A stretch of DNA of 64,000 bases from Hemileia vastatrix (Eukaryota > Basidiomycota > Pucciniomycetes > Pucciniales > Zaghouaniaceae), in the NCBI GenBank assembly GCA_030280995.1, contig JASXTE010000004.1, positions 18,925,185 to 18,989,184 on the forward strand, given 5' to 3'. A program made the translations under genes and the position numbers. Every line of letters begins with the position of its first letter. The first letter of the stretch is position 1. Below, one piece after another: positions 1,515 to 59,285 of the stretch. Below the pieces are notes generated by a model. The model had not been told where the DNA came from. It ran no database searches and worked only from the letters and a program-made list of their open reading frames with translations.

Positions 1515-2049
1515 ATGAGTGAAAACGTTGACATTGTAAGAAATAAGGCAAAACCTTATGACTTGAGACCAAGAACTAATAAATTTTTTGCAGGACATCA
1601 CCATGAAGGAAACCTCACCCAGCAACACTCCTCATATGAGTCTGGAGGAGAAAGAAAGGCTTCTCAACCTTGTAAAGATCAAAAAATCAAAAAATACCCT
1701 TCAAGAACAAATTCACTCCCTATCTCAATTACAAAACAGCTTGAAAGTAAAGGTCAACAAAATGGAAGAGAAGCTTATGAATTTAGAGAAAAGGGCAGGC
1801 CAAACTTTCATGGAGGTCAACCAACAAATAACAGACCTAAGGGCACAGGTGAAACCAGTAACAACTCCCTCAAACAATCAACCAGCTCCTTCTCAAGCTC
1901 CAGGAGAAGAGCAGATGATAACTGTAAGCAAATGGAAATGGGACTGGTATGCCCAGAACTACAACAGCAACCCTCATCAAGAGTCCAGCCATCACCCTTA
2001 CAGGGGAAAGGGAAAAAGGGGAAGAGGAAGTGGAATAAGACCTTGGTAA
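1515..2049 (+). CDS. E1 spliced alternative-frame protein (overprints gag)
   Basis: Predicted from splicing. Exon 1 is 1515-1535 (7 codons), intron 1536-1593, exon 2 1594-2049, giving about 158 aa. Exon 2 is read in a different frame from Gag-Pol, which is also open throughout. The product has a lysine-rich start, a heptad-like coiled coil (about residues 30-75), a proline/glutamine linker, the motif VSKWKWDWY, and a basic glycine/arginine tail starting HPYRGKGKRGRG and ending in Pro-Trp then TAA. Homologues in the same position exist in E2, E3, E4 and E5. The function is unknown. A coiled coil plus basic tail would suit an RNA-binding or Gag-partner role, but this is inference. Splicing itself is predicted, not shown. 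Confidence 0.7.
1536..1593 (+). other. Frame-switching intron in E1 gag (58 nt)
   Basis: Donor GTAAGA, branch-like ACTAATA 14-20 bases before the end, and acceptor TTTTTTGCAG. The length is 58 nt (1 modulo 3), so retention reads Gag-Pol and removal reads the overlapping frame. The identical length and position recur in E2 and E3. Confidence 0.7.
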
Positions 2050-5000
2050 GTCATCCACCTTCTAATGTTCAACAATATAATACTGACGATGAATTACTTA
2101 TAGGTGATAATGAGGTATTAAGGTTGATTGATAATGATATTCAGGATTATTCATTTGATAATAATGATTTGAATTTATCTTTAAAGGATGACATTGTACA
2201 TAGCTTTATTGATAATGGTGATAATAAAAATATAAAAATTGAAACAAATGAATCAAATCTTGACCCATATAATCTTGATAGCACTTCTGAGTTAGAAATT
2301 AATGGTTTTATGAAAGAAAACCCTATGATATCTTCTATAATAAATAAATTGTTATTGAGAATTGAAAAGTTAGAAGAATATTCCAAGGAGTCTTCAACTG
2401 AAATGGAGGAGGTAATACTAAACCTCACTAAATCTTTGACTCACACAGCCAATAAAGTTAAGTTCATTGAAAAGTCAAATGATGATTTGTTAAATGAAAA
2501 TATCAAATTAAAATCTGATATTGAGCAGTTACACAGTAAGCTGGATCAATCTCAGAGTACTATGGCTATTATTGAGGGATGGGTAAAATTGTCTTTTTCC
2601 AATTTAAATGATACTCTTTCACATGTACCTGCTTTGCAAAATAGATTTCAGATACTAGAAATAGAAGTAGCTAACATATTGAAAAATAATGACAGTAAGC
2701 ACGTAAACACCTCTTATAAAAACCATACACCAGTAAATAAGAGAGAATCATTTGATAAATCATTGATTGAGAAAGAACATAGTGGTATAAGTTCTGAGAG
2801 TCACAAATCAGTAAAGGATGAGATAAATGATCATCTGTCAAAATTAAGTGAATTACTTAATATTCCTCAGGTTAAGGAAGTAAAAACTAACCAGAAAAAC
2901 TGGCCTAAGTTAGATCAGTACCCTACCTTTGATGGGGATTCAAAATCTGATTGGCAACAATTCATACAAAGAACTGATAACTTAAAATTTTCATACAAGT
3001 TACCTGATGAAGAAATTACATCAAAACTTATATCTTTATTTACAGATGTGGCCTTATTATGGTTTGAATCTGTATTGAGTGAGGGGATAAATTACTCTTG
3101 GAATGAATGGAAGGCACGAATTGAAAGACAATTTGGTGGTCCAAAATTCAGAATCACTCAACAAAGATTGTATGAAAAATCAAGATATACTCCAATTAGT
3201 GGAGAAAAACCAATGGTCTTTTTAATGAGTTTGATAAAAATCATGAAAGCCATGGATCCAAAAATGGATTTTGATGTGTGGAAAGAAAAAATAATATATG
3301 AATTGCCTATATCAGTCAGAGACATTATTGTAGCTAGAACTGAAACCATTAGAGATACTTCTGGTTTTATCAATATATGCAATGAAATATTATTAAACCA
3401 CAGATATGAGACAAGGTACAACACTTATAAGCAAAATGTTGAGGTAGTAAAACCTACTACAAGTAAGTTACCAGTAGAAAGGAAAAAACCTATTGCTCCT
3501 CTTGTTCCAAAGAAACAAGAAAGTAACACTTGCTATAAATGTAATGAACCTTGGGTTAAAGGTCATTCCTGTAAGAAAAGAATAAATGTTATTGAAAACT
3601 CACAAGATTCTGAACCCAGTAATCATGAAGATGAAAAGGATGAGTCTAGTGAGGATTGTAAAAGTAACATTTCTTACAGTGATGAAGAGAATGAAGTATT
3701 GGTATTAGAACAGGATATTATGTTCCTGAATGATACAATATCTTCCAATGATACATCTTTAACTTCCATTGAGGAAGCTGAGATAATTAAAGATGTAGAT
3801 CATGATACTTACAAAATCAAGCCTATTAGAGCACCTGTTATAATATGTGGAAAAGAAATGAATGTCATTCTTGACACTGGGGCTGCTGGTAGTGTAGTTT
3901 CTGTTAATACATTAATGAAACTGGATAGTAAGTACAAAGAAAAACTAGAACCTGTACAGACAAAGAACTGGAGAGGTTTTGGTTCAGTATTAAGTCCAAT
4001 TGGCAAATACAAAACTGCTGTTTTCTTCAAATATCATAATGGATTTGTAAGAGCAGTATGTGATTTTGTAGTCATGGATAATATTAATTGTAGTGATTGG
4101 TTTATCATTGGCAATGACTTATTGACCAAATTTGGTTTTAAAATAGATCCTGCAAATAGTTGCTTCACCATTGGAGTAAATGGGAAGAGAAAATTCAAGA
4201 TTTGCTCTGAAAATTCTGTTTATACCATTGCTCCAAAGGAAGAACAACAAAGTGGAAGACCCACTTCTGAGATGCTTGAGTTGGAAAATAAAATCCAAAA
4301 ATCCTCATTTAGTCCTCAACTCTCAAATATTGAAGTAGACAATATATTGAGATTGATAAAATCTTATCCTAGGGCATTTGCACACAGTTCAAATGAGCTA
4401 GGATTGGTCAAAGACCATGAAATGAAAATATCTTTAAGTTGTGACCTGGATAATATTCCTGGCAGCTTAAAAAAGAAACCTTACCCAGCTTCTCCTGCAA
4501 AAAGGAAAGACATTGAAGACAACATAAAAATGTTGTTGGAAATGGGTATTGTTGAGAAAGTAGACACAACTCCTAAATATTGTGTAATATCACCAGTTTT
4601 AATCTCTTATGAAAAAGATAAGGCAAGGTTATGTGGTGATTATAGAGCTCTAAATACATTCACAGTGGATGATATTTACCCTCTTCCCAGGATAGCTTCT
4701 ATCCATGCTACCTTACAAGGAGCTAAATATATTTCATGTCTGGATGGAAACAAAGGTTACCACCAGATTCCAGTAGAAAAGAGTTCTCAGAATTACTTAC
4801 TGATCAGCACACATATGGGGATATATAAGTATGTGAGAATGCCTTTTGGACCTAAAAATGCCCCTTCAGTCTTCCAAAAATTGATGGATAGTGTTTTTCA
4901 TCAGGAAATGGTTGAAGGATGGCTCTTAGTATATATTGATGACATCATAGTGTTTTCAAAAACATATGATGAGCATTTAAATCACCTGTAAAGAGTATTT

Positions 5001-15216: not shown

Positions 15217-15916
15217 TCAAGGTTTCATCCTGCCTTCCAGATTTACCTGAAGGAACAGAGTCAGCCACAAGAAAAGGCACTTGAGAATCAATAGAGGGAT
15301 GTACCAGGGTTTTCTGGGTATCACCATATTGGGCTTCCTTCTTCTTTTGCCTCCTTGATAAGGGTGGGGAGGAGTGGGGTTGACCTGGGTGGGCCTTGAT
15401 GGACCTACCTGAGGTAACTGATGCTGGTTTTGAGCCAAGTAGTCCCACTGAGTGTTGAGCCAGTCCCACTGCCACTTGGACACTTCCACCATCTCTTGGG
15501 ACTGGGGAGCCAATTGTTGTTGATCCCTGGGAGGAAGAGGTTTCTTCTTCTCTTGGAGAAAAGTATCTGTTCTTTTTACCTTTTCTTCCAAGGCATCTAC
15601 CCTTACCTTTAGTCTCAAGCTGTCTGTCATTAACTCCTTTATGTGGGTAGACAGATTCTTTACCTGCTGAGACAACGGCATCTTTTTTATCCTGAAGCCT
15701 TTCGGAAGCTCTTCTGGTGGGTTTGTAATGGGCTTCTGATCGTGAGTATTGTCCACTAGAATTTCTACTTCTTCCATCTCTACATCCTGTTTGGGGCAAG
15801 GATTTATTAGTTTGAGAAATTCTTCTTGTTAAAGGAGAACTTACAGAAGTAGGCTCATCATAATCAATTAAGTCTAGTTCTTCTTCACGTGCAGCAAAAC
15901 CACTTTGGTCAGTCAT
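15217..15916 (-). CDS. E2 spliced alternative-frame protein
   Basis: Exon 1 is 15916-15845 (24 codons, acidic, REEELDLIDYDEPTS), the intron is 15844-15787 (58 nt), and exon 2 runs from 15786 to a stop at 15217. Exon 2 encodes an acidic start, RIKKMPLSQQVKNLS followed by a coiled coil, a KKPLPP linker, the motif VSKWQWDWLNTQWDYL, and the basic tail HPYQGGKRRRKPN ending RKPW. Here the Trp-stop of the other copies reads TGG TAC, so the frame runs 28 residues further. The Gag-Pol frame is open across the same DNA. Orthologous to the E1, E3, E4 and E5 alternative frames. Function unknown. Confidence 0.68.
15787..15844 (-). other. Frame-switching intron in E2 gag (58 nt)
   Basis: On the minus strand: donor TCT/GTAAGTTCTCC, branch-like ACTAATAAAT, acceptor CCCAAACAG/GATG. 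It is 58 nt long, 1 modulo 3. The intron of E3 has the same donor, length and acceptor. Confidence 0.72.
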
Positions 15917-17929: not shown

Positions 17930-18548
17930 TTACCAAGGCTTGCTGGGTATGACCATATTTGGCTTCCTTCTTCTTTTGCCTCCTTGATAGGGATGAGGAG
18001 GTGTGGGGTTTACCTGAGTGGGTCTTGAGGGACCTGCCTGATTCAACTGATGCTGGTTTTGAGACAGGTTGTCCCACTGGGTGTTTAACCAGTCCCACTG
18101 CCACTTTGCCACTTCCACCTTCTCCTCCTGGGACTGGGGAGCCAATTGTTTTTGATTCTTGGGAGGAAGAGGTTTCTTCTTCTCTTGAAGGAGGGTATCT
18201 ATTTTTCTCACCTTCTCTTCCAGAGCATTTACCTTTGCCTTTAGTTTCAATTCTTCTGCCTTTAACTCCTTTATGTGAGATGATAGGTTCTTTACTTGTT
18301 GGGGCAGTGGCATCTTTTTTATTTTGAAGCCTTTTGGAAGTTCTTCTTGTGAGTTTACCACAGGCTTCTGATCCTGAGGTTTGTCTACTAGGACCTCCAC
18401 TTCTTCCATCTCCACATCCTGCTTGGGGTAAGGATTTATTAAAATGAGAAATTCATTTTGTTAAAGGAGAACTTACAGAAGTAGGCTCATCATAGTCAAT
18501 CAAGTCAAGTTCCTCTTCCCGTGCAGCAGAGCTACTTTGGTCATTCAT
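17930..18548 (-). CDS. E3 spliced alternative-frame protein
   Basis: Exon 1 18548-18477 plus exon 2 18418-17930 give about 186 aa. It is collinear with the E2 product: acidic start, KIKKMPLPQQVKNLS and coiled coil, KKPLPP linker, VAKWQWDWLNTQWDNL, then HPYQGGKRRRKPN and PSKPW followed by TAA. The stop overlaps a splice-donor-like GTAAG. This is the most complete copy of the small protein in the window, even though its host gag is truncated just downstream. Function unknown. Confidence 0.68.
18419..18476 (-). other. Frame-switching intron in E3 gag (58 nt)
   Basis: On the minus strand: donor TCT/GTAAGTTCTCC and acceptor CCCAAGCAG/GATG. It is 58 nt. An in-frame TGA lies inside, so in this copy only the spliced form could be translated past it. 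Confidence 0.7.
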
Positions 18549-21207: not shown

Positions 21208-24200
21208 CTCCCTCACTCTAAAAAAACAATAAAAAAAATGCTATGATTTTTTCTTTTTGTACTTGTTTAGCAGAGTAGGAATATTTGAAATTTCCTTTCC
21301 AGGTATCCATGCATCATGTTGAGATAATTTGTTCTTATATCTCAATAAATATTCAGTACCTCTTTCAGAAGTGATAATTCTATCATTGAGAATTTTATCA
21401 ATTTCTGCAGTTTCTGTGACTTCCTGAGGGTTTTTCTTAGGTCTTCCCCTTCTTTTGGGAAAGAAGTCACTGTTGGAAGTATAAGGCTTAAGTAAAGAAA
21501 TGGCAAAAACAGGATGTTTCCTATCATATGGAGAATACAATACAACTTCTACTGCATTATCTCCAACCATTCTTTTAACAACAAATGGTCCTACAAAAGG
21601 ATCTTTTAATTTTTTGTTACCTTGTAGATTGAAATGGACAGTAGATATCAACACTTCACCACCCTTGTTAAATGTGTATTCTTTATGGGATTTATCCCAT
21701 CTCTTCTTTTCATATTCAAATGCTTTATCAATATAGCTTTGAGCATGTTTTCTGCATAGCTGTTGCATTTGCACAAATTATTTTACACCAGGGTGTAGTT
21801 CCAACTTAGGTAATTTATTATTGAGAATTTGAGCAGGAGTATTTGGGAAAAAATCTAACCAAAGCTAAAAAGGCTTTTTCTCAGTGACAGAATGAACAGT
21901 GCTATTATATGCAAATTCAAGACCAGGAAATAGAGTGACCCAGTCATGAGTAAATTTGTCATTGTCTTTATATTCTAATCCAAAGGCACAATACCTTCTA
22001 ATTATATCTTCCAGAGTTTGAATCATTCTTTCAGCTAGAACATCAGTCTGAGGGTGGTGAGCTGTAGACAGCTTTAACTCACAGTCACAAATATCCATCA
22101 AAGAGGTCCAAAACTCAGAAGTAAATTTTGGATCTCTATCAGAGATAATGGCTTTTGGAAATCCAATAATATTGAATATGTAAGTCCACCATAAGAAAGC
22201 CAATTCCTTTGTGGATACATCTTTGTGGGTGGAAATAAACTTGCACATTTTTGTGATTCTATCCACTATTACACAACAAGAGTTATAACTGTCTTTACCT
22301 GCTACAAGAAAACCAGTGACAAAATCCATGTTAATGATTTTCCAAGGAGCATCAGGTGCTTCAATATGTTGTAATAACCCTGCTCTTTTACCTGTCAACC
22401 TTTTTGATTTCTGGCAGGAATCACAAGATTCAACATATAATTTTGTATCTTCAGACATATTAGCCCACCAAGCAGTGTTTTTGATCCTAATGAATGTCTT
22501 TTCAAAGTCAAAATGACCAGCTAATATGTCATCATGACAAAGCTTTAGGATAGTTTCTTTCATAGAAGGAGGAATTACAATTACATTATTAAGATTTCTT
22601 CTATAATAAATATAACCATCTTCAATAGAAAACTTTCCTTTCATCAAAGCACTTTGATATTTAGCAGGAAGAGTTTTAATCAATGCTTGAATTGAAGCAT
22701 TCTTAGGATCATTTAAGATAGCAACTAATTTTTTTAAATCAGAATCCTTATCATATGAATCCAGTATTAATTGTAATAACTCTTCTTCCATATCAACTAT
22801 AAATATACCATGGATATGAACAGTATCATCTTCAGGTACATAAGCAGGATTGGAGTCATTATTTGGCAGAGGCATTCTGGACAACATGTCAACATTGGAG
22901 TGAAAATTTCCAGCTCTATGGATAATTGTCATCCGTCCTCTATACTCTTGAACAGCAAGTTTCTACCTGAACATATGTCTATTAGGTGTTTTCAGGTTTA
23001 AGAGGGGCTTCACAGCACTACAGTCAGTTACCAATTCAAACTTTTGGTCATCTAGATAGTAATGAAGTTTCTCAAGAGCCCAAACAACTGCTAAGCACTC
23101 TAATTGAGTGGCACCATATTTCAATTCACTATTTCTCAAGGTTCTTGAAATATGAAAAATTACAACTTCTGAGGATTTATCATTAATAATTTGTTTCTGG
23201 TGTAGGGAAGCACCCAGACCAACAAAACTAGCATCTGTATACAGGAAAAATGGTTTTTTAAAGTCTGGAAGAGCTAAGATAGGGGCTGTCATTAAGCAAC
23301 TTTTTAAAGTATCAAATGCTTTTTGACAGTCACTATTCCAGATGAATGCAACATCTTTCCTAGTGAGTTTGGTAAGAGGTAAGGCTATGACCTGATAATT
23401 TTTAATATATTGCCTGTAATAGCCACACATACCCAAAAAACTTTGGATTTCTCTTACAGAAGTTGGTGCTTTCACATTTTGAATTGCAGCAACTTTGTTT
23501 TGGTCTACACAAATTTGTATGCCTGACACAACATGGCCAAGGACTTTCAAAGATTGAAAACCAAATTTAAACTTTTTCAAGGACAAGTTCATATTGATTT
23601 CATCCATTTTTTGAAAAACTCTATTCAAGTGAACCATATGTTCATCAAAAGTTTTAGAAAAAACTATGATATCATCAATATACACCATAAGCCATCCTTC
23701 AATTATTTCCTGATGGAAAGTGTTATCCATGACTTTTTGGAAAACTGAAGGTGCATTTTTAGGGCCAAATGGCATTCTAAAATACTTATATATTCCCATA
23801 TGAGTAGCAATAAGCAAAATTTTTTGAGAATTTTTCTCAACTGGAACTTGATGATACCATTTATTACCATCCAGACAACTAATAAATTTTGCACCTTTCA
23901 AGGTAGCATGTATTGAATTAATTCTGGGTAAAGGATAAATATCATCAACAGTATAAGTGTTTCATGCTCTGTAATCTCCACATAATCTAGCCTTATCTTT
24001 TTCATAAGAAATCAAGACTGGAGAGATGACATAATATTTGGTGGTGACATCCACTTTCTCAATGATATTCATTTTCAATAATGTGGAAATATTATCTTCA
24101 ATATCCTTTCTTTTTGTTGGAGAAGCAGGATAAGGTTTTTTCTTAAGACTAGGAGGAATATCACTCAAGTTACAGGATAAGGTAATTTTAATTTCTTCCT

Positions 24201-26726: not shown

Positions 26727-27372
26727 TCACCATGGCAAGGGAGGAAACTTCCCCTGTTCCTTCTTTCTTCTGCCTCCCTGATAAGGATGGGGCTGAGGAG
26801 ATGGATGGTAGGTTGGTGTCCTGGATGGGCCAGGGTGTTGAGCTGTTGGTTGCTGAACATTCTGTTGGTAATGGCTCATCAAGTAATCCCATTTCCACTG
26901 CTCCACCAACAGAGTGCTTTGATTTTGTGTGAAGGAGCTGGGTACCTGATTGGGCTGAGGTTGAGGCTGAGGCTGGGAGGCTGGGAAATGAGGAGTTTGA
27001 GCCTGTTTGGGATTTAATAATTCCTGCATCTGCTTCCAGAGTGTGTCTACTCTTTCATTGTACTTCATACTTTCTGCTCTCAGTTCTTTGATGTGACTGG
27101 ACAGGTTGTTTACTTGTTGAGTCAGTGGTATCTTTTTTATTTTTATACCTTTGAGTTAATTTTACTGATTTATTAGAGGTTTTAATTCATTCAGAGGTGT
27201 TTGGTGAGGGGGGTTTGCCACTTCTCCTGCCATTTCCACGTCCTGAAGGTTTTTTGTCAGCTGAATAATTTTTGTAAGTTAATTTAAAAGAACCTACAGA
27301 TTCAGTGTCACCATCCACTTCAATCTCATCCACATGCAAGTTATCGATGCTGTTAGCCAAACTACTGAACAT
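26727..27372 (-). pseudogene. E4 alternative-frame protein, broken
   Basis: Exon 1 is 27372-27298 (25 codons, MFSSLANSIDNLHVDE), the intron 27297-27243 (55 nt), and exon 2 starts GACGTGGAAATG as in the other copies. A stop and small deletions interrupt it after about 25 codons. From 27068 the frame resumes with the glutamine/proline linker, VEQWKWDYLMSHYQQN, HPYQGGRRKKEQGKF and PPLPW followed by TGA (26727). It is a decayed version of the E5 protein. Confidence 0.62.
27243..27297 (-). other. Frame-switching intron in E4 gag (55 nt)
   Basis: On the minus strand: donor TCT/GTAGGTTC, branch-like CAGCTGAC, acceptor ACCTTCAG/GACG. It is 55 nt long, again 1 modulo 3, and identical in length to the E5 intron. 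Confidence 0.65.
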
Positions 27373-29445: not shown

Positions 29446-31191
29446 TCAGCCTGGATATCCCCAGGACTGAATAAAAAGTACTTATAAGTTATGCTAAACA
29501 CAATGACTAAACATGGTAGCAATAAATTAGAGTACACAAATAGTATGCATAAGTAAAATTATGATAATATGCAAAATATGCCATTATAACACCTTATATA
29601 TGTGCATATATCCACTTTTTATAAGTATTATGTACTTAATATTAAGTTGGAATATGTTAGGGTAATCTTAAGAACCTTAAATATAAGGCTACATAATTTT
29701 TAAGTACACTTGAAGCTGTTGTTTTCATTGTTTTATGTAAAAAACAAGAAATGTGCTTTAAATCACTTAAAAGGTGATTATATGCACTATAAATTTAATA
29801 ATATTAAAAATGCGCTTTGACAGATCAATTTTTCTTTATTAGGACTATTGATTTGGCTACTCAAATGCATAAAAATAAAACTTTTCAAATTTGGTGTTTT
29901 TTATGCCAGAAATGGCTTCTGTGTACTGGCCACATACTGCCTGCATTTTCCCCATGTGAATAGCTTCATTTTTAGCAAAGTTAGCTTTTTCAAACTATAA
30001 TTACCCCACATTCTACGCCCACTGTGGAGAAACACACCAAAATAGGTGACAGGCACTTATTTAGTGTCCTAGCTTAATTATAAATGCATTGACCCTTTTT
30101 CATATGCACTAATTTCATTAATAACCTCATTCTTGGCACTTTAATTTACTACCACACTTAAATTTGCTTAAATTAGTCAAGGATTTACATTTGCAAGCAC
30201 CTTCTAAGGACTGCATGTAGTTACCCCACATCTCATTCCCTTTTTTGGGTTTTTTTGGTGGTTTCTTAGTCAATTTTGGTTGTTTTTGAATGGGGATTTC
30301 ATGTAGTATAGTGTCATGATTAGCCACAACATTTCTACTGATAATCCCCCTTATTATTAAGTAATAATTTGTCTTAATTTTCCCTTTTTAATCTTTTATT
30401 TTAATGTATAATACACATACACTACGCAATGTAGGGGGTGGACTTGCTAGCAAGTCCTCAACCTGAGCTCAGATGGAACTCAGACTGAACTCAGACTGAA
30501 CCCATACTGAACTCTACTTGAACACCCACCTAAAACTGTTCTGCTGAGTGGTTTTCATCCCTGATTTTATGTTTCCTTTATCAATAGCTCAATGTGTGTT
30601 CAATCTGTGGTGAGTTTGGGTCCAAGGTTGCGGACTGGCTAGCAAGTCCGCCCCCCATATTGTGTGGTGATATTCTCTCTTTTTTGCTTATTCTTTAATT
30701 TTGATGGATTATCCCTATTACTGCAGGATTTTGGTGGGTGATTTCATTCTAATTATGTTACTGGTCACTCTTTTTGTTTCTGGACATGTCTATTAGCTGG
30801 AATGAGGCGTCATCAACTGGGTATAGAGCTGGTAAATAAAGGGAGTCATTGGCGAAGTAACTGTGTATAAAAGGAGGGGGTTTTTGGTCTTATTTTCTAC
30901 ATTCTTTATCATTACAATTAAACATATAACCAATAAAATTACAATACATATCAATAGTACTCATAAAGACTTTGAATAGTATCTGAATTTATTAAATCTA
31001 TTTTTCTACTAACTATAAGATTGTAAGCCATATGTAATTAGTGAGATTAAAACTACTGAGACCCTTATATTGAGTTATATTTTAATACTTATTGGATTTT
31101 TACTACAGTATTCATATAGGACCATTAAAATCTTCTAGACAACTGACCATTCAAGCTAGTTCACATCTCTGTACTTGACCTCAGCCTGAAA
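29446..31191 (+). mobile_element. Solo LTR of the E1 family
   Basis: Starts TGTCAGCCTGGATAT and aligns with the E1 LTR throughout, including the TATAAAAGGAGGGGG promoter region near 30868. It ends CCTGAAA. CACAT flanks both ends (29441-29445 and 31192-31196), so it is a complete integration reduced to one LTR by LTR-LTR recombination. A 250-bp MITE sits inside it (30420-30669). The small minus-strand frame at 30127-30327 is not supported. Confidence 0.9.
30420..30669 (+). mobile_element. CACTA-like MITE, copy 1 (250 bp)
   Basis: Terminal inverted repeats of about 40 bp (CACTACGCAATGTAGGGGG at the left, complement of CCCCCCATATTGTGTGGTG at the right) including the palindromic GGACTTGCTAGCAAGTCC-type core. 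ATA is duplicated at both ends (30417-30419 and 30670-30672). Subterminal repeats of the CTCAGACTGAAC type occur. The start CACTA and 3-bp duplication fit the CACTA/EnSpm superfamily. No transposase. Copies 2 and 3 are at 48602 and 55535. Confidence 0.85.
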
Positions 31192-31196
31192 CACAT

Positions 31197-38960: not shown

Positions 38961-39603
38961 ATGTCCAGTAGTTTGGCTAAAAGCATGGATAACTTACATG
39001 TGGATGAGACTGAAGTGGATGTTGACACTGAATCTGTAGGTTCTTCTAAAGTAACTTACAAAAATAACTCAGCTGACAAAAAACCTTCAGGACATAGAAA
39101 TGTCAGGAGAAGTAACAAACCCCTCTCACCTAACAACTCTGAAGGAAGTAAAACCTCAGGTACATCAGGAAAATCCACTCAGAGGTATAAAAATAAAAAA
39201 GATTCCTCTAGCACAACAGGTAAACAATCTGTCAAGCCATATAAAGGAACTGAGAGCAGAAAGCATGAAGTACAAGGCAAAGGTAGACACACTCTGGCAG
39301 GAGATGCAGCAGCTTTTAAATCCCAAACAGGGTCAACCTCCTCATTTCCCAGCTTCCCAACCTCCGCCTCAACCTCAGGCCATTCAGGCATCCAGCTCCC
39401 TCAACCAAAATCAAGGCATTCTGCAAGTGGAACAATGGAAATGGGATTACTTGATGACCCACTACCAACAGAATGTACAACAACCAGCTCAACACCCTGG
39501 CCCATCCAGGACACCAAACTACAATCCATCTCTTCAGCACCATCCTTATCAGGGGGGCAGAAGAAAGAAGGCACAGGGGAAGTTTCCTCCCTTGCCATGG
39601 TAA
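38961..39603 (+). CDS. E5 spliced alternative-frame protein
   Basis: Exon 1 38961-39035 (25 codons, MSSSLAKSMDNLHVDETE), intron 39036-39090, exon 2 39091-39603, about 195 aa. Exon 2 encodes DIEMSGEV, then GIKIKKIPLAQQVNNLSSHI leading into a coiled coil, a long proline/glutamine linker, VEQWKWDYLMTHYQQN, HPYQGGRRKKAQGKF and PPLPW followed by TAA. It is unbroken although most of E5 gag-pol is broken. The Gag frame is open across the same bases. Function unknown; the homologues are in E1-E4. Confidence 0.7.
39036..39090 (+). other. Frame-switching intron in E5 gag (55 nt)
   Basis: Donor TCT/GTAGGTTC, branch-like CAGCTGAC, acceptor AACCTTCAG/GACA. It is 55 nt. A second GTAACT inside could be an alternative donor, but it would not give the same frame switch. 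Confidence 0.68.
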
Positions 39604-47189: not shown

Positions 47190-48601
47190 AAATTTGGCAG
47201 TGGGATTCTTCATTTTTTTCTCTATTTTCTCTGTAACACTAATATTATACATATTTTTTATTCTTTTGTAGATTTTCATGATTAACTTACCTAAAATCAA
47301 AAGAAGACAAATAATGAGAATAGATTCAATTTAATTTTGTAAAATACACTTTTTTACACTTGTGATGAATAAAAATTAAAAAGAAATGGATTTAATTGCA
47401 CTTTATATGAACTTTGTGTGTCACAGAGAAACAGATGACTATTAGAAATAGCACTTATGTGCTTATTTTTCTTTGAATTTTTAGTCTAAATCTCACTATA
47501 TTCTGACTCAATTTTTTCTTTTTCATGAAAAAAATTTATTTGTTTCAATTTTGAATTTTTTTATATTATCAAATTTAAATATGGTACCAAAAAAATTTAA
47601 TAAAATTAAGCTAAGTATTCAGAATATTTAAAAAGCTTCTTCACTAATTATTTTTTAAAACAACCCTTACAAAACCCTCAATTATTTTGTAATAATCAGG
47701 TCAAATCCTCATTTTTGCAAATTGCCTTAGATGAATTTGGAGAATGCTGAACCCTTTTCAGAGAGCTATAAAAATTAAAGTTATTTTAATTAAACATTCT
47801 TTTAATTTCAAAAAAATATCAATTTAGCTAGTGTCAAACATTTCATAAAAAATGAAACACTTACCATTGAACAAAAAGTGAAGCAGATGCACCAGAAAAA
47901 AAACATGGGCACCTGATAGCAGGTGCCAATCCCTATCTTTGTTTTAACTCAATTTAAGCTCAGCTTTAATTCTTCTGGAAAGATTTCTCACTGAAAAAAA
48001 AGTACAATAGCTTGTGAAACATAAAATCAAATTTATTTTTAAATCCTTACTGAATATAGGGATAGGCACCTGCTAACAGATTCCACTTGATTTTTTGTGG
48101 CAATCAGGCTATAAAAGAAAAAAAGAGAAATAAAAAATTATCATTTTTTCAGAGAAATTAGTGAAAAAAATAAAGAAACCCACAGCTGTTGTGTGATAAC
48201 TCTTTGTAAGGGTAAAAAGGAGTGTCTGGTAGATACAGTTCTCTATGGGTTTTTATTCAGGTATATGGTTTCTTCCAGTAAAATTGGGAGTTTTGGGGCT
48301 CAAAATGGAAAGAAAATAGCTCAAAATTGATTCAGTAAGATTAGTTGCTCTTCAAATGCTAATTAATATCTTTATTTAATCAAATTATGACAAGAAATGG
48401 GGTATTTTGATGGTGTTTGGCAAAGATATGCTTTTGCAGAGATTAAAAGAGCTCCTTTGATATCAAGGTAGATACAAGGTGATAGAGAATGCTCTCTGGA
48501 TTCATTCTGAAGTTTAAAACTCTCAAAATTGGTTATATTTTGTTTTTAAAAGATTTATTTTAGCTATAAAGCTAATATAGTTGCAAATTTGGAGGTTCAA
48601 A
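47190..48601. other. Non-coding AT-rich region with a MITE
   Basis: No gene. It starts with the primer-site-like TGGCAGTGGG after LTR7 and holds MITE family 2, copy 2 (about 47888-48105). The remainder is AT-rich with no clear structure. Confidence 0.45.
47888..48105. mobile_element. MITE family 2, copy 2
   Basis: Inverted ends GCACCTGATAGCAGGTGCC and GGCACCTGCTAACAG, each with a small palindrome, flanked by A-run/T-run (CCAGAAAAAAAA and TTTTTTGTGG). About 200 bp, no coding. A lone half-motif (TAGCAGGTGCCAA) also occurs near 60340. Confidence 0.5.
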
Positions 48602-48851
48602 CACTACACAATATAGGGGGTGGACTTGCTAGCTAGTCTCCAACCTGAACTCAGATGGAGCTCAGAATGAATTCATATTGAACTCATACTGAAATCTACT
48701 TGAATGCCCACCTAAAACTTTTCATTTTAGTGGTTTTCATCCCTTATTGAATGGTTCCTTTGTCAATAGCTCAATGTTTGTTCAATCTGTGGTGATTTTG
48801 GGTCCAAGGTTGCAGACTTGCTAGCAATTCCGCCCCCCATATTGTGTGTTG
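48602..48851 (+). mobile_element. CACTA-like MITE, copy 2 (250 bp)
   Basis: Starts CACTACACAATATAGGGGG, ends CCCCCCATATTGTGTGTTG, with AAA at both sides (48599-48601 and 48852-48854). Same length as and collinear with copy 1 at 30420. Confidence 0.85.
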
Positions 48852-50689
48852 AAAGGATATTTATGTTAAATATGGACTCATCAAAGGCTCTGGAATTTCT
48901 AAAGATAATCAAAAATGGATTATTCTTACTAAAATTATTTTAATAAGGTTATGATATTTTTGATTTTAATTTATTTATGAAGAAACATAGGAAAAAATGG
49001 TGTTTTTGGGCTGAACGTTCACCTGTGGCAGTCAATATTAGGTCAAATGAAAAGAGAAATGACTAAAGTTGTGGGAGAAACTCTTTGGATGCACTTTTTC
49101 ATGAAGTTTCTTCATATCTTGCATGTTTACATTTAATAATTTTTATTAGGTATTTAAATTTGTATAATTTGGTTTATTTGGTGACAATGACTACCAAATA
49201 GGTAATTTGAAATAGGATGAAGTTAAATAATTCTTTAAAGAATTTAATCACTGTTTTCTATGCATGGAAAGATTTATGGAACAATTTTATAGGTCATTAT
49301 GGCTCCATTGAAGGTCTTTAAAAGTAAATATCTCATGGTTTTTTGAGAAAAATGGTATTATTTGGGTACAAATATGTATCTGTGGCAGTCAATAATGGAA
49401 AAAATGACTAGAAACAAGTCTCAGAAAGTATCTCAATAGCTCTTCTATTGAAAAGAGGTTTTAATTTTTTTATATAAGCAGTTTATAAATTAAGAATATC
49501 TTTTAAGTTAATTGAAGTTTTAGTGAAGTGGGCAGTGACAGGCCACTATACAGATTTATATGAATAAATCTTTGTGATATGTCATAATGAATTTTTTCAT
49601 CCAATTATATAATAGGAGATTTATGGTATTCTACAGACTTTGAGCAATCACTTTCTACCAATAATTGGTCAAAAATGGCATATTTACCTTGAATTTGGCT
49701 GAATCATGAGAGAAGGACTTAAAATGGGTAATGAGATGGCTTATATATGATCTACAATACTTTATAGCTGATAATAAGGCTTTGATTGTCAAGGAGAAAT
49801 GCACTTGAGGAATCTATTAAGGTGTATGTGACACTATCTTAAAGTTTCATTTAGAAATGGAGTATATGGTGATTAACTAATTAATTAATTAATTAATTAA
49901 TTAATTAAGGAAGTTAAGAAGTCCAGAGGGATCTTGGTTGACAAGGAGTTAAACTTATATCATTTATAGAGTTGTGGAAACCCTTGTGATTATTATCTTG
50001 TAATTGAAATGGAGAATTAGAAGAGTAAACTTCTGCTGTCTAGTTTGCTTGGTCATAATTTGCTCGCACACAAAGTGTACAGGAAAATGTGTATAGCTCA
50101 TCAGTGACTGAAGCTATAGAGTATTTAGGGAAATATTTTACATCTTTTAGTCTTTAAAAAATAACATGAGAAATTCAGGAGTCTCAGGTACTTTTAAATG
50201 GGTATAAACTACTAACTAAATTGGATTTTTTTTCAAAATTAAATGATAACTCACTTGAATGTAGAGGTCCCAGGGTACAATAAATATGTGAAACTAGAAT
50301 GGAGCCTAAGTGAGAAATATTATGGAACTTCAGAAATAATGGTTATCATTTTACCATGGGATTGGTTATAAAAGCCAGGTGAAAATGAAGACATAATGAG
50401 GATTACTGGATAGTCACCTCTCATTATTAAACACATTGAAATTATCCCTAATTATTAACATCTCATATCACCTCATCTCATCTTAATAAAAATAATATTT
50501 ATTAGCTTTGTTAATTTTTCTTTATCTGAATTATATTATTATAAGGGTCTGGTAGTGTTATTTTTCTCTATTTTTCAATATTATTTTAAAATTATTAAAA
50601 ATAATTAGAAGATGATAATTTACCAGGGTAAACCAAGTATTAAGGTATATTTTATTATTATTTTATTAATCATTAGATACTCCTTATAT
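48852..50689. other. Non-coding region with microsatellite and promoter-like TATA
   Basis: No gene. It holds a (TTAA)n tetranucleotide run at about 49874-49908 and a TATAAAAG at about 50370 followed by leader-like sequence, which may be a relic LTR promoter. Confidence 0.4.
49874..49908. repeat. TTAA/AATT microsatellite
   Basis: About eight uninterrupted copies of a TTAA-type tetranucleotide. Confidence 0.85.
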
Positions 50690-56424: not shown

Positions 56425-59285
56425 GAAGGAAAATCAGGGTCAGTGAATTGGAGGATAGCACAGGAAAGGAGGAGAAAAAAGACAGCTCTTGGGAGTAAAG
56501 ATTTTGCTCTCCTTGAGGAGATTAGAGGGGAAGGATAAGGTAGACTTAGTAGAAGAATTATCAGTGTTTAATCATTTGAAGTAAATGATAATTGTGTTAC
56601 ACTAAACTTGCCTTTAATGACCCTTGACACTGAAAAAATATATAAGCCCGGCTGGACTTTCAGGCCACAGACTGTTTTATTTACAATAAGTTTTTACAGA
56701 GAAATCAAATGAAAAAAGAAAAATTGGAGAACCACATGCATCTAATTATATTTTATGGATTTTCTGGTGGGGGAAGAGAAGTAAGAGAAAAGGTTTTTTT
56801 TGAAGATTCTGGTGCAATGAAAGGGAGTCTAAGTGAAAATAATTTATAAAAAACCTGAAAGACCAGTATGACATGGTACTGGGAATAACATGGCTGGACC
56901 AGTAAAGCCTGCACATTGACTGGAAGGAAAAGACAGCTCAAAGTGGAAGAAAAGGGGACACTGGTGCTAAAGTATTGGCCACCTGGCCCCTTCAGGGGTC
57001 AGGGGCTCATCCTGGTGCATCTTTTGATGTTTTGTTATCATCAGTTGACTTTCCACATGAGATGAAGCTTTATCTTGACTATAAGCAGCAGGCTGGGGAT
57101 GGATCACCAACAGGGAGTGCCAGAGAGGGCCAGAGAAGGGATGTAGCAGGCTAAGAGGAGAAGAAGTTGTAATAAAGAGGGGGTAAGGCAGAAGATGGAA
57201 AGGTGGATGGCACAGATAAAAAATTGGACCCCTGTATCCTCCTGGTGAGTCTTCTGGTGTTTTATTATCATCTGTAGAATTTCTGTAAGAACTGACACTT
57301 TCTCCTGATGCTAAGTTTGAGGACTTGGAGTGAGAGCCAGAGGAAGAGGAGTAGCTGTAATGCAACACAACAGAATGTGACATATCTGCCAATATTTCAG
57401 CCAAGGTCCAGTCCTCAAAGTTAACAAAAAGACTCCAGAAAATGGTCACTGAAGCCTATTGGGAACTCTTACTGCTGTTTTGAGATGGAAGAGTCAAGAT
57501 CCTTCCACCTCGCCAAATGTACAGGTTTACCATTGATAAGATGACAGGATAAAATCCTCAATTAAGCAACATAATCCCATTCTCAACCGTGAAGTAAACT
57601 GTGCTAAAAGAGATGATTGATGAAAATTTGAAAGATGGTTTCATCAGAGAATCAAAATCTCTGAGGGCAGCCCCTGTGAGTTGTTCAGGTAAAAAGGATG
57701 TGTCACTGTGACTGTGCATGGATTTTCAAAGTTTAAATGTGCTGAAAGTTAAAAAAATATACCCCCTTCTTCTGAATAGTGAGCTGATAATCAGTCTTCA
57801 GGGTGTAGAAATTTTCACATTCTTAGATCTCATGGAAGTTTACCACAAAATATGTGTGAAAGACAGAGATGATCACAAACTGGAATTCTTCACTAAATTT
57901 AGCCATTTCATATTGTTGGTAATTCCATTTGTTCCATTTAACATTACATCCACTTTCAAACACTTCACCAATAGTATTTTCAGAGATAGAATAGGGATAG
58001 ATGTGGAAGTGTATCTAGACAACACATTAACTTACTCCTGATCTGTGGATGAACACCAAATACATGTGAAAGAGTATTTGAAGCACTTGAGAGAGGCCCA
58101 AGTATGATTAAAACCAGAAAAATGTGTCTTCTCACTAAGTGAAATCCCCTACCTGAGGATTATCTTTTCAAAGGATAGGACACAAATGAGCTAGGATAAT
58201 GTTAAAGGCAGTAACAGAGTGCCCAATACCACAGTGAAAAATAGAGCTCCAGTCCTTTTTAGGCTTTTTACATTTTTAACACTTCTTTATTTAAAATTAC
58301 TCTTATATCTCTAGACACTGCACAACCTCAAAAAGAAAGAAGCCAAATTCACATGGAAAATTATCAAACAAGATTCTTTTGACTACCTGGAGAGGAGATT
58401 TATGATGTTCCCTATTCTTGCAATCCCAGACTTACTAAATCCGTTTGTTCTGGAATCTGAATACTCAGATTTTGTGCTAGGCACAGTATTGCAATTTTTT
58501 ACTACCACTTTATTGATAATTACTCCCACATTTGACAACCACTTCACAGCTTTATGTAGAAAGAAGCCAAACTCTTTTGGAAAAGTATCCAACAAGATGT
58601 GTTTGACTACCTGAAAAGAAAATTTGTGACATTCCCTATTTTTGAGATCCCAGACTTACCAATTCCATTTTCTCTAAAATGCGACTTCTCAGACTTTGTG
58701 CTAGGTGCAGTATTATCCTAAAATTATACCAAAAATTTCTTACACCCAGTAGCATATTTTTAATGTACACTTCTAGGCTCCAAATTAAACTATGAAATAA
58801 ATTATTAGGAGATATTGGCACTAGTAGAGGCTGTAAGCACCTGGCTACACTATTTAAAAGGAGGACCACACTTTTTACAAGCTATTATCTACATGGATTG
58901 AAAAAACTTGGAAACCATACTGACCACTAAAAAGTTGACTTTCTGGAAAGTACCCTGAGCATAACTGCTAAGCAAAATTAATTTTTTTTGTTTCATTCAA
59001 ACAAGGGAAGAGAAGTGTCAATCCTGATGCACTATCACTACATCCTGACTTGAGCCCAGCACCAAACCAGCTGCATGCTTTTGGTGCATCCTTGTTGAAG
59101 GGGTATCTTAAAGAGGGAGTAATTCTAGATGAATATTTGCTGTAATGGGTAAGGAAGGGGCAGAAAAAGGATGTGGTAGTGCAGGAGTTAGTAAAGGTGC
59201 TCTTATCTAAGGAGGAATAGGTAAAGAAAGGATTGGAGGATTATCACCTGGAAGTGGAAGTGCTCACAGGGTGAAATAAAATATG
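56425..59285 (+). pseudogene. E7 pol: protease remnant, RT, RNase H
   Basis: Continuation of E7. Near 56867-56930 a remnant YDMVLGITWLDQ...LHIDWK marks the end of the protease domain. From about 57440 the RT is recognisable: MIDENLKDGFIRESKS, LCMDFQSLN, IFTFLDLMEVYHKI, FKHFTNSIFRD and VYLDNTLTYS (the YLDD active site reads YLDN). RNase H follows (LNPFVLESEYSDFVLGTVLQ) with an internal tandem duplication, then the linker FKQGKRSVNPDALSLHPDL near 59010. Many stops and frameshifts. The coding trace stops at the AT-rich insertion near 59290. Confidence 0.82.

Follow-up and report, generated by a model that had tools for sequence, protein, structure and literature searches.

What is encoded by the second open frame that runs across the start of gag in the LTR elements of this locus, and how could one gag ATG serve two frames? 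Five LTR elements or element parts (E1–E5) lie within the 64,000-nt window (the whole stretch of DNA analysed, positions 18925185–18989184), and we grouped them by similarity, a grouping of our own, into family A (E1), family B (E2 and E3) and family C (E4 and E5); a further family, D, was found outside the window, elsewhere in the assembly that was searched (747.6 Mb, 791 contigs). LTR-like terminal repeat pairs, which were taken as LTRs, showed identities of 98.7% (E1), 96.4% (E4) and 94.8% (E5). Reverse transcriptase (RT), RNase H and an integrase zinc finger were all found in a single E2 ORF, and a chromodomain (PF00385) was read at the Pol end of E4 only (21241–21774). This order of RT, RNase H and integrase, together with the C-terminal chromodomain, identifies the elements as Ty3/Gypsy chromoviruses; the integrase core of E1 scored just below the cut-off. 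Among the 120 Pol relatives listed, 12 bore an organism name, and six of these 12 were rust fungi (Austropuccinia psidii and Puccinia coronata).

A second open frame with the series of motifs that a first-pass annotation of this DNA had described was recovered at the places named there in E1, E2, E3 and E5 (Table 1). The frame is +1 relative to the Gag frame and encodes a protein of ~160–195 aa with an IKK motif, a long helix, WxWD(W/Y), HPY(Q/R)G, a basic tail and Pro-Trp, and alignment of the E1, E2, E3 and E5 proteins gave 27 invariant columns, including IKK, W-x-W-D, HPY and the final Pro-Trp. The earlier description of E4 as a decayed copy was right as to the decay but wrong by one base as to the place: the position named reads the Gag frame, and the small frame begins at 27242. 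A stop codon directly follows Pro-Trp in E1, E3, E4 and E5, in 10/10 A copies, 10/10 D copies and 17/20 C copies, so that the terminal position claimed for this motif holds in these families but not throughout family B, where the stop has been lost in 13 of 40 copies. By our own count, 18 of these first 40 B copies end at Pro-Trp (one of them at Thr-Trp), 13 read on and nine stop earlier; those reading on stop soon after Pro-Trp, except L042. E2 is likewise without a stop after Pro-Trp, and its small frame continues for 28 residues, to 15217. Relatives of the small frame were found at at least 150 places for each of three queries (at least 450 scored) in the assembly, and the layout was read in fetched copies comprising 79 intron-bearing B, 20 C, 10 A and 10 D.

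Table 1. Gag frames, first exons, alternative introns and small frames of E1–E5, with positions in the window
Feature	Position	Strand	Basis or remark
E1 Gag-Pol ORF, 1158 aa, gag to reverse transcriptase	1515..4991	+	open across intron and overlap
E1 exon 1 (MSENVDI)	1515..1535	+	exon shared by the A and D copies
E1 alternative intron, 58 nt, GTAAGA...CTAAT...GCAG	1536..1593	+	
E1 small frame, DITMKE...RPW stop	1594..2049	+	translation
E2 Gag frame ORF, 499 aa	14417..15916	-	open across intron and overlap
E2 exon 1, gag ATG and 24 shared codons (MTDQSGFAAREEELDLIDYDEPTS)	15845..15916	-	spliced copies align to edge 15845
E2 alternative intron, 58 nt, GTAAGT...CTAAT...CAG	15787..15844	-	Gag-frame when kept; homologous stretch missing in 29 fetched B copies
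E2 small frame (exon 2), DVEMEEVE...KPW	15304..15786	-	translation
E3 exon 1	18477..18548	-	
E3 alternative intron, 58 nt	18419..18476	-	Gag-frame stop in this copy
E3 small frame, DVEMEEVE...KPW stop	17930..18418	-	translation
E4 exon 1	27298..27372	-	
E4 alternative intron, 55 nt, GTAGGT...CTGAC...TTCAG	27243..27297	-	
E4 small frame, decayed (stops at codons 27 and 29)	26727..27242	-	Gag frame there also with 2 stops
E5 Gag frame ORF, 364 aa	38961..40055	+	open across intron and overlap
E5 exon 1 (25 codons)	38961..39035	+	
E5 alternative intron, 55 nt, GTAGGT...CTGAC...TTCAG	39036..39090	+	spliced counterparts L139 and L140 in family C
E5 small frame, DIEMSGE...PLPW stop	39091..39603	+	translation

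In all four families the gag ATG opens an exon of 7–25 codons that is followed by an intron of 55–58 nt (1 mod 3): if it is retained, translation from the ATG runs on into the Gag-Pol frame, whereas its excision brings that ATG into register with the +1 small frame. A donor, GTAAGA, GTAAGT or GTAGGT, follows the gag ATG after 21, 72 or 75 nt in E1–E5, the interval to the small frame is 58 nt in E1, E2 and E3 and 55 nt in E4 and E5, CTAAT or CTGAC stands ahead of the acceptor in E1, E2, E4 and E5, and CAG/GA lies upstream of the small frame in every copy of the window. The intron is free of Gag-frame stops in these same four elements. Among 39 intron-bearing B copies, TTCTGTAAG was present in 34 and AG in 37, and the intron measured 58 nt in 31, 55 nt in three and was unmeasured in five; the donor pattern was also found in 37 of 40 further B copies. 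The donor string was present in 19 of the 20 C copies, 16 of which have an intron of 55 nt (53, 54, 56 nt or unmeasured in the rest), and the same arrangement was seen in the ten A and ten D copies, the exceptions being a lost ATG (L149), a stop in the intron (L146) and a weaker donor (L152).

With the E1 protein as query, 80 A-type matches (87–100% identity) and 70 family D matches (63–67% identity) were obtained among at least 150 places. Among the D matches listed, 49 of 70 share one score and 69 of 70 are stop-free in the matched stretch; judging by the sequences, family D is probably a very young burst. Four of its copies (L157–L160) differ from one another at 4–36 of 1012 positions in a gap-free comparison. 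The small frame was intact in all of the ten D and ten A copies, and the Gag frame ran uninterrupted from the ATG through the piece in eight of the former and was open over the overlap in seven of the latter. In one D copy the Gag-frame ORF extends for 1231 aa into RT, with one in-frame stop before RNase H, and the small frame is open. Gene finders may call one of the two frames and miss the other.

One ATG, a short exon 1, an intron of 55–58 nt and a two-frame overlap would together make up a dual-coding switch, and the sequences make it highly probable that splicing and double coding are combined in this way at the 5' end of gag. For the whole explanation, in which the switch produces a Rev/CERV-like regulator, we estimate a probability of roughly 45%; a Rev/CERV-like role of the small protein, considered by itself and by analogy, is a real possibility at somewhat less than even odds. 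A spliceable intron has to survive in the RNA used both as genome and as Gag-Pol mRNA. The host would splice so short an intron by default, so that the small protein would be made first; it would be nuclear and would self-associate via its helix, taken here as a coiled coil, its basic tail would bind the RNA of the element, and it would favour export or use of the unspliced RNA, which is genome and Gag-Pol mRNA. The outcome would be a feedback resembling that of Rev/Rex or CERV. That the small protein is an accessory factor, as had been proposed, we infer from the analogy with known systems, in which an RNA-binding regulator appears the most likely identity and a particle cofactor a close second; the regulator is favoured because the retrotransposon Cer1 meets the problem of a retained intron through CERV. 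Both products could also arise from inefficient splicing without any regulator.

Rev and Rex are small, basic, self-associating proteins made from spliced RNA, the unspliced RNA being genome and Gag-Pol mRNA, and their genes are found mostly near the env end, with several splices required. The elements described here resemble them, as read from sequence alone, in having a spliced small basic product and an unspliced RNA that is genome and Gag-Pol mRNA, but differ in that the switch is placed at the 5' end of gag and uses one intron. Complex control of genes by alternative splicing is usually credited to vertebrate retroviruses; if a fungal chromovirus does so with one intron of 55–58 nt, the trick is older or has evolved more than once. 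It is a tentative proposal that such a chromovirus regulates itself in a Rev-like manner through a new RNA-binding family that was overprinted on gag, is gated by one intron, would choose between spliced RNA early and unspliced RNA late, and originated independently of Rev and CERV.

The first-pass annotation had held that no such layout was described in Ty3/Gypsy elements, which stands for this product and layout, both new to us, but not for a spliced, partly alternative-frame regulator as such: the paper on Cer1, a Ty3/Gypsy LTR retrotransposon of C. elegans, mentions Rev and describes CERV as a regulator from a spliced mRNA that has its N-terminus in common with Gag (PMC10309623). According to the same paper CERV has 517 aa and five exons, with its last half from an ORF after pol, a Cys-rich loop and a G domain (PMC10309623). 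It shares with the small protein the Ty3/Gypsy setting, the spliced mRNA, the Gag-shared N-terminus and one exon off the gag frame, and, as described there, Cer1 likewise has no gag/pol stop and CERV a potential leucine zipper and a candidate basic nuclear signal (PMC10309623). Unlike CERV as so described, the small protein would depend on a single intron of 55–58 nt, has only ~160–195 aa and lies wholly inside gag.

Doubtful, yet to be given serious weight, is the reading that the same switch produces not an RNA regulator but a cofactor of structure or assembly, which would resemble matrix or nucleocapsid and be made in excess of Gag-Pol. Gag and Pol come from one frame, an extra RNA-binding or scaffold protein may be needed, and the long helix and basic tail would suit such a role. 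A comparable case is BARE1, a Ty1/Copia element of barley, in which, as described, a small alternative intron at the end of gag shifts the reading frame within a single gag-pol frame and serves the supply of Gag (PMC3735527). Splicing in BARE1 yields Gag alone (PMC3735527), whereas here it would yield a different protein and no Gag: visual inspection of the E1 translation places the capsid- and zinc-knuckle-like part further downstream, in the Gag frame, and the spliced product is therefore not a Gag. A further point against a cofactor is that no homology of the small protein to any known family was found. A search among 5.8 billion proteins with a single sequence and then with a four-member profile, in which shared 5-residue words were required, gave no relative; neither did viral contigs scanned with the small protein and with Pol, nor bacterial and archaeal genome contigs scanned with Pol. 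All 39 matches listed in Pfam for four small proteins were below Pfam's cut-offs, and a profile search of the PDB gave weak coiled-coil matches only. Since none of the protein, Pfam and PDB sequence searches returned a significant match, the small protein was not filed as a Rev/CERV-like member. The predicted structure contains a helix at residues 38–79 (pLDDT 72–92 by block) and a low-confidence helix at 98–121 within an overall weak model (mean pLDDT 62.4, pTM 0.27), and in one copy the last 28 residues have a pI of 11.7 and the first 30 a pI of 4.1. In the open-access literature no gene of this kind was found described for retrotransposons of fungi or of rusts, which is weak evidence, and a word search of a rust TE paper revealed none either (PMC12210899).

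It is unlikely that Gag in truth begins with the small frame, a second splice or a frameshift linking that frame to the Gag body, and that the Gag frame of the overlap is incidental. Such a join would be in line with donor-like sequences at the Pro-Trp stop (GTAAGT, GTAAGC or GTGAGT in E1, E3 and E4, and the weaker GTAAAT in E5 and GTACAT in E2), with the absence of the 58 nt after this stop in L027, with the 13 of 40 B copies that read on, with two of 70 B copies (L042 and L052) in which the small frame is fused to the Gag body through indels, and with seven places where, by letters, exon 1 leads straight to the Gag body (one of these, L077, was read). In L027, however, neither frame enters the Gag body, as the small frame stops at PW and the Gag frame soon after; moreover, the Pro-Trp-stop ending is kept in every A and D copy and in 17/20 C copies, and stops are avoided in the Gag frame over the overlap. 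Apart from the two indel fusions, the small protein was not found joined to capsid in one polypeptide, as a Gag N-terminal domain would be. At the L042 locus the fused frame is open for 993 aa, and L052 is also intron-less. The second intron-like stretch at the Pro-Trp stop has 55/58 nt (15247–15304 on the minus strand in E2) and the acceptor TTCAG/GT, and it starts with a GTAAGT-like sequence in some copies; L027 is without exactly this stretch, which gives Pro-Trp-stop again, and the GGTAA present at both ends would allow a slip deletion.

The Gag-Pol frame had been reported as open across the overlap in E1, E2, E3 (after the intron) and E5, and this was confirmed with 0 stops in each. In a stop test in which the small protein and its own codons were fixed and synonymous codons were shuffled, 5.4–7.1 Gag-frame stops were expected in these four copies and none was found (P ≤ 2 × 10−4 each). 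For five A and D copies 4.6–7.5 stops were expected and none was seen, except for one in L155, which makes eight of nine copies with no stop and a ninth with one; as the copies are related and A and D are sister-like, these tests amount to three to four independent points. The third frame matched the shuffle expectation, and ten pieces of ordinary coding sequence from E1 and E2, each of 160 codons, showed no depletion (13–41 stops in the equivalent frame, as the shuffles predict). The co-existence of the two open frames is thus beyond chance.

On the internal branches of family B (79 copies plus E2 and E3), substitutions at small-frame positions 1/2/3 numbered 48/35/99 in the overlap, 4/16/3 in exon 1 and, in a smaller sample, 64/155/68 in the gag body, the excess in the latter two falling on Gag-frame third positions; protein-level constraint therefore passes from the Gag frame in exon 1 to the small frame in the overlap and back to the Gag frame in the body. 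Family C, with few changes on its internal branches, gave 10/10/27 at small-frame positions 1/2/3. With a transition weight of 3 assumed in the codon-class expectation, observed/expected ratios on the B internal branches were 0.70 (nonsynonymous) and 2.03 (synonymous) for the small frame and 1.23 and 0.61, respectively, for the Gag frame. No stop arose on these branches in either frame of the overlap (10.1 expected in the small frame, 7.9 in the Gag frame). On terminal branches there were 32 stops in the Gag frame versus 23.1 expected and 11 in the small frame versus 30.0, the latter number being biased by ascertainment because most copies had been picked as best small-frame matches. Gag-frame stops in the gag body occurred at the neutral rate on internal branches (13 versus 12.2 expected), a poor fit to openness, so the sample may include non-autonomous lineages. 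Identity was 58% in the Gag frame versus 81% in the small frame between L153 and L159, and 24% versus 42% between E2 and E5. Selection was thus detected on both frames, as is expected of overlapping genes, on the protein in the small frame and on the absence of stops only in the Gag frame, whose product shows no constraint on its residues there; stop avoidance is what speaks for this frame having to be open. The claim of double coding is upheld by the protein-level constraint of the small frame and the stop-free Gag frame, but it does not extend to the Gag-frame amino acids of the overlap, which are not conserved. If only the small frame coded in the overlap, and the Gag frame were open by purine-rich composition with Gag-Pol starting further down, the lower conservation of Gag-frame amino acids in both pairs and the concentration of substitutions on small-frame third positions would find an explanation; this is nevertheless very improbable given the 4.6–7.5 stops in shuffles against none in eight of nine copies, the expected behaviour of the third frame and of the ten ordinary pieces, the lack of Gag-frame stops on internal branches (0 versus 7.9), and an intron that itself lacks Gag-frame stops in E1, E2, E4 and E5.

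The proposal that the small protein depends on splicing is borne out by exact intron-less copies in families B and C and by splice signals in all four families. Among the first 40 B copies, L036 was found to be without exactly the intron. A search of the assembly with the junction pattern, which matched the exact junction only, so that near-miss breaks lie outside the survey, yielded 45 places (0 in the reversed-pattern control), of which, by letters, 38 are the exact B intron-1 junction and seven a different join. Thirty of the 45 were fetched, and in 29 of them exon 1 continues in frame into the small frame, the exception being L077; the upstream part aligned to element sequence of the window at all 30 loci. 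The C junction search gave two places (L139 and L140; control 0), both of which were fetched and confirmed and both of which are decayed elsewhere, bringing the intron-less places fetched and read to 31 (29 B and 2 C). Of the 29 B copies recruited through the junction and not through the small frame, 18 have, by our count, a small frame without interruption up to Pro-Trp, and 21 a Gag frame that stays open throughout the overlap. These natural spliced copies would be a record that spliced RNA, too, was reverse transcribed, and they point to a product of a spliced mRNA in elements whose unspliced RNA encodes Gag-Pol. Together with the at least 450 small-frame places they make it testable by comparison how intron-bearing genomic RNA escapes the spliceosome. 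The A/D junction pattern search gave three places, none of them a junction, and no spliced A or D copy was found in it. Its 3-mismatch matches L161 and L162 look, by eye, like Copia gag and were rejected; they are a nearly identical pair of Copia-like gag ORFs, preceded by a repeat.

In the tree of 79 intron-bearing and 29 intron-less B copies, 14 changes of intron state were counted by Fitch parsimony on single trees without support values, versus a mean of 26 and a minimum of 21 with shuffled labels, and the nearest neighbour of an intron-less copy was intron-bearing in 14 cases and intron-less in 15. The intron has therefore been lost repeatedly, and some intron-less copies multiplied afterwards. 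Although one base (G) is common to both break points, which makes slippage possible, and one B clade of six (L057, L058, L059, L061, L069 and L072) seems to have multiplied from a single loss, it is scarcely credible that the intron-less copies are chance deletions rather than reverse-transcribed spliced RNA, given that the same exact break recurs in the 14 changes and in a second family (C), that the break points coincide with splice signals and that the upstream part of all 30 fetched B loci matches element sequence of the window.

In L077, exon 1 is joined in the Gag frame to the Gag body (at about 14788 of the window in E2) and the small frame is skipped; six other junction-pattern places share this join by letters, L077 being the one fetched. 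It is perhaps another splice form, or one deletion that spread. Elsewhere in the window, a more distant Ty3-like Pol relative (26–31% identity to the E2 Pol) was noted at 57604–58856. An LTR-like stretch at 29538–31193 is 73–78% identical to the E1 terminal repeat and is broken near 30416–30670 by a repeat that recurs at 48598–48852.
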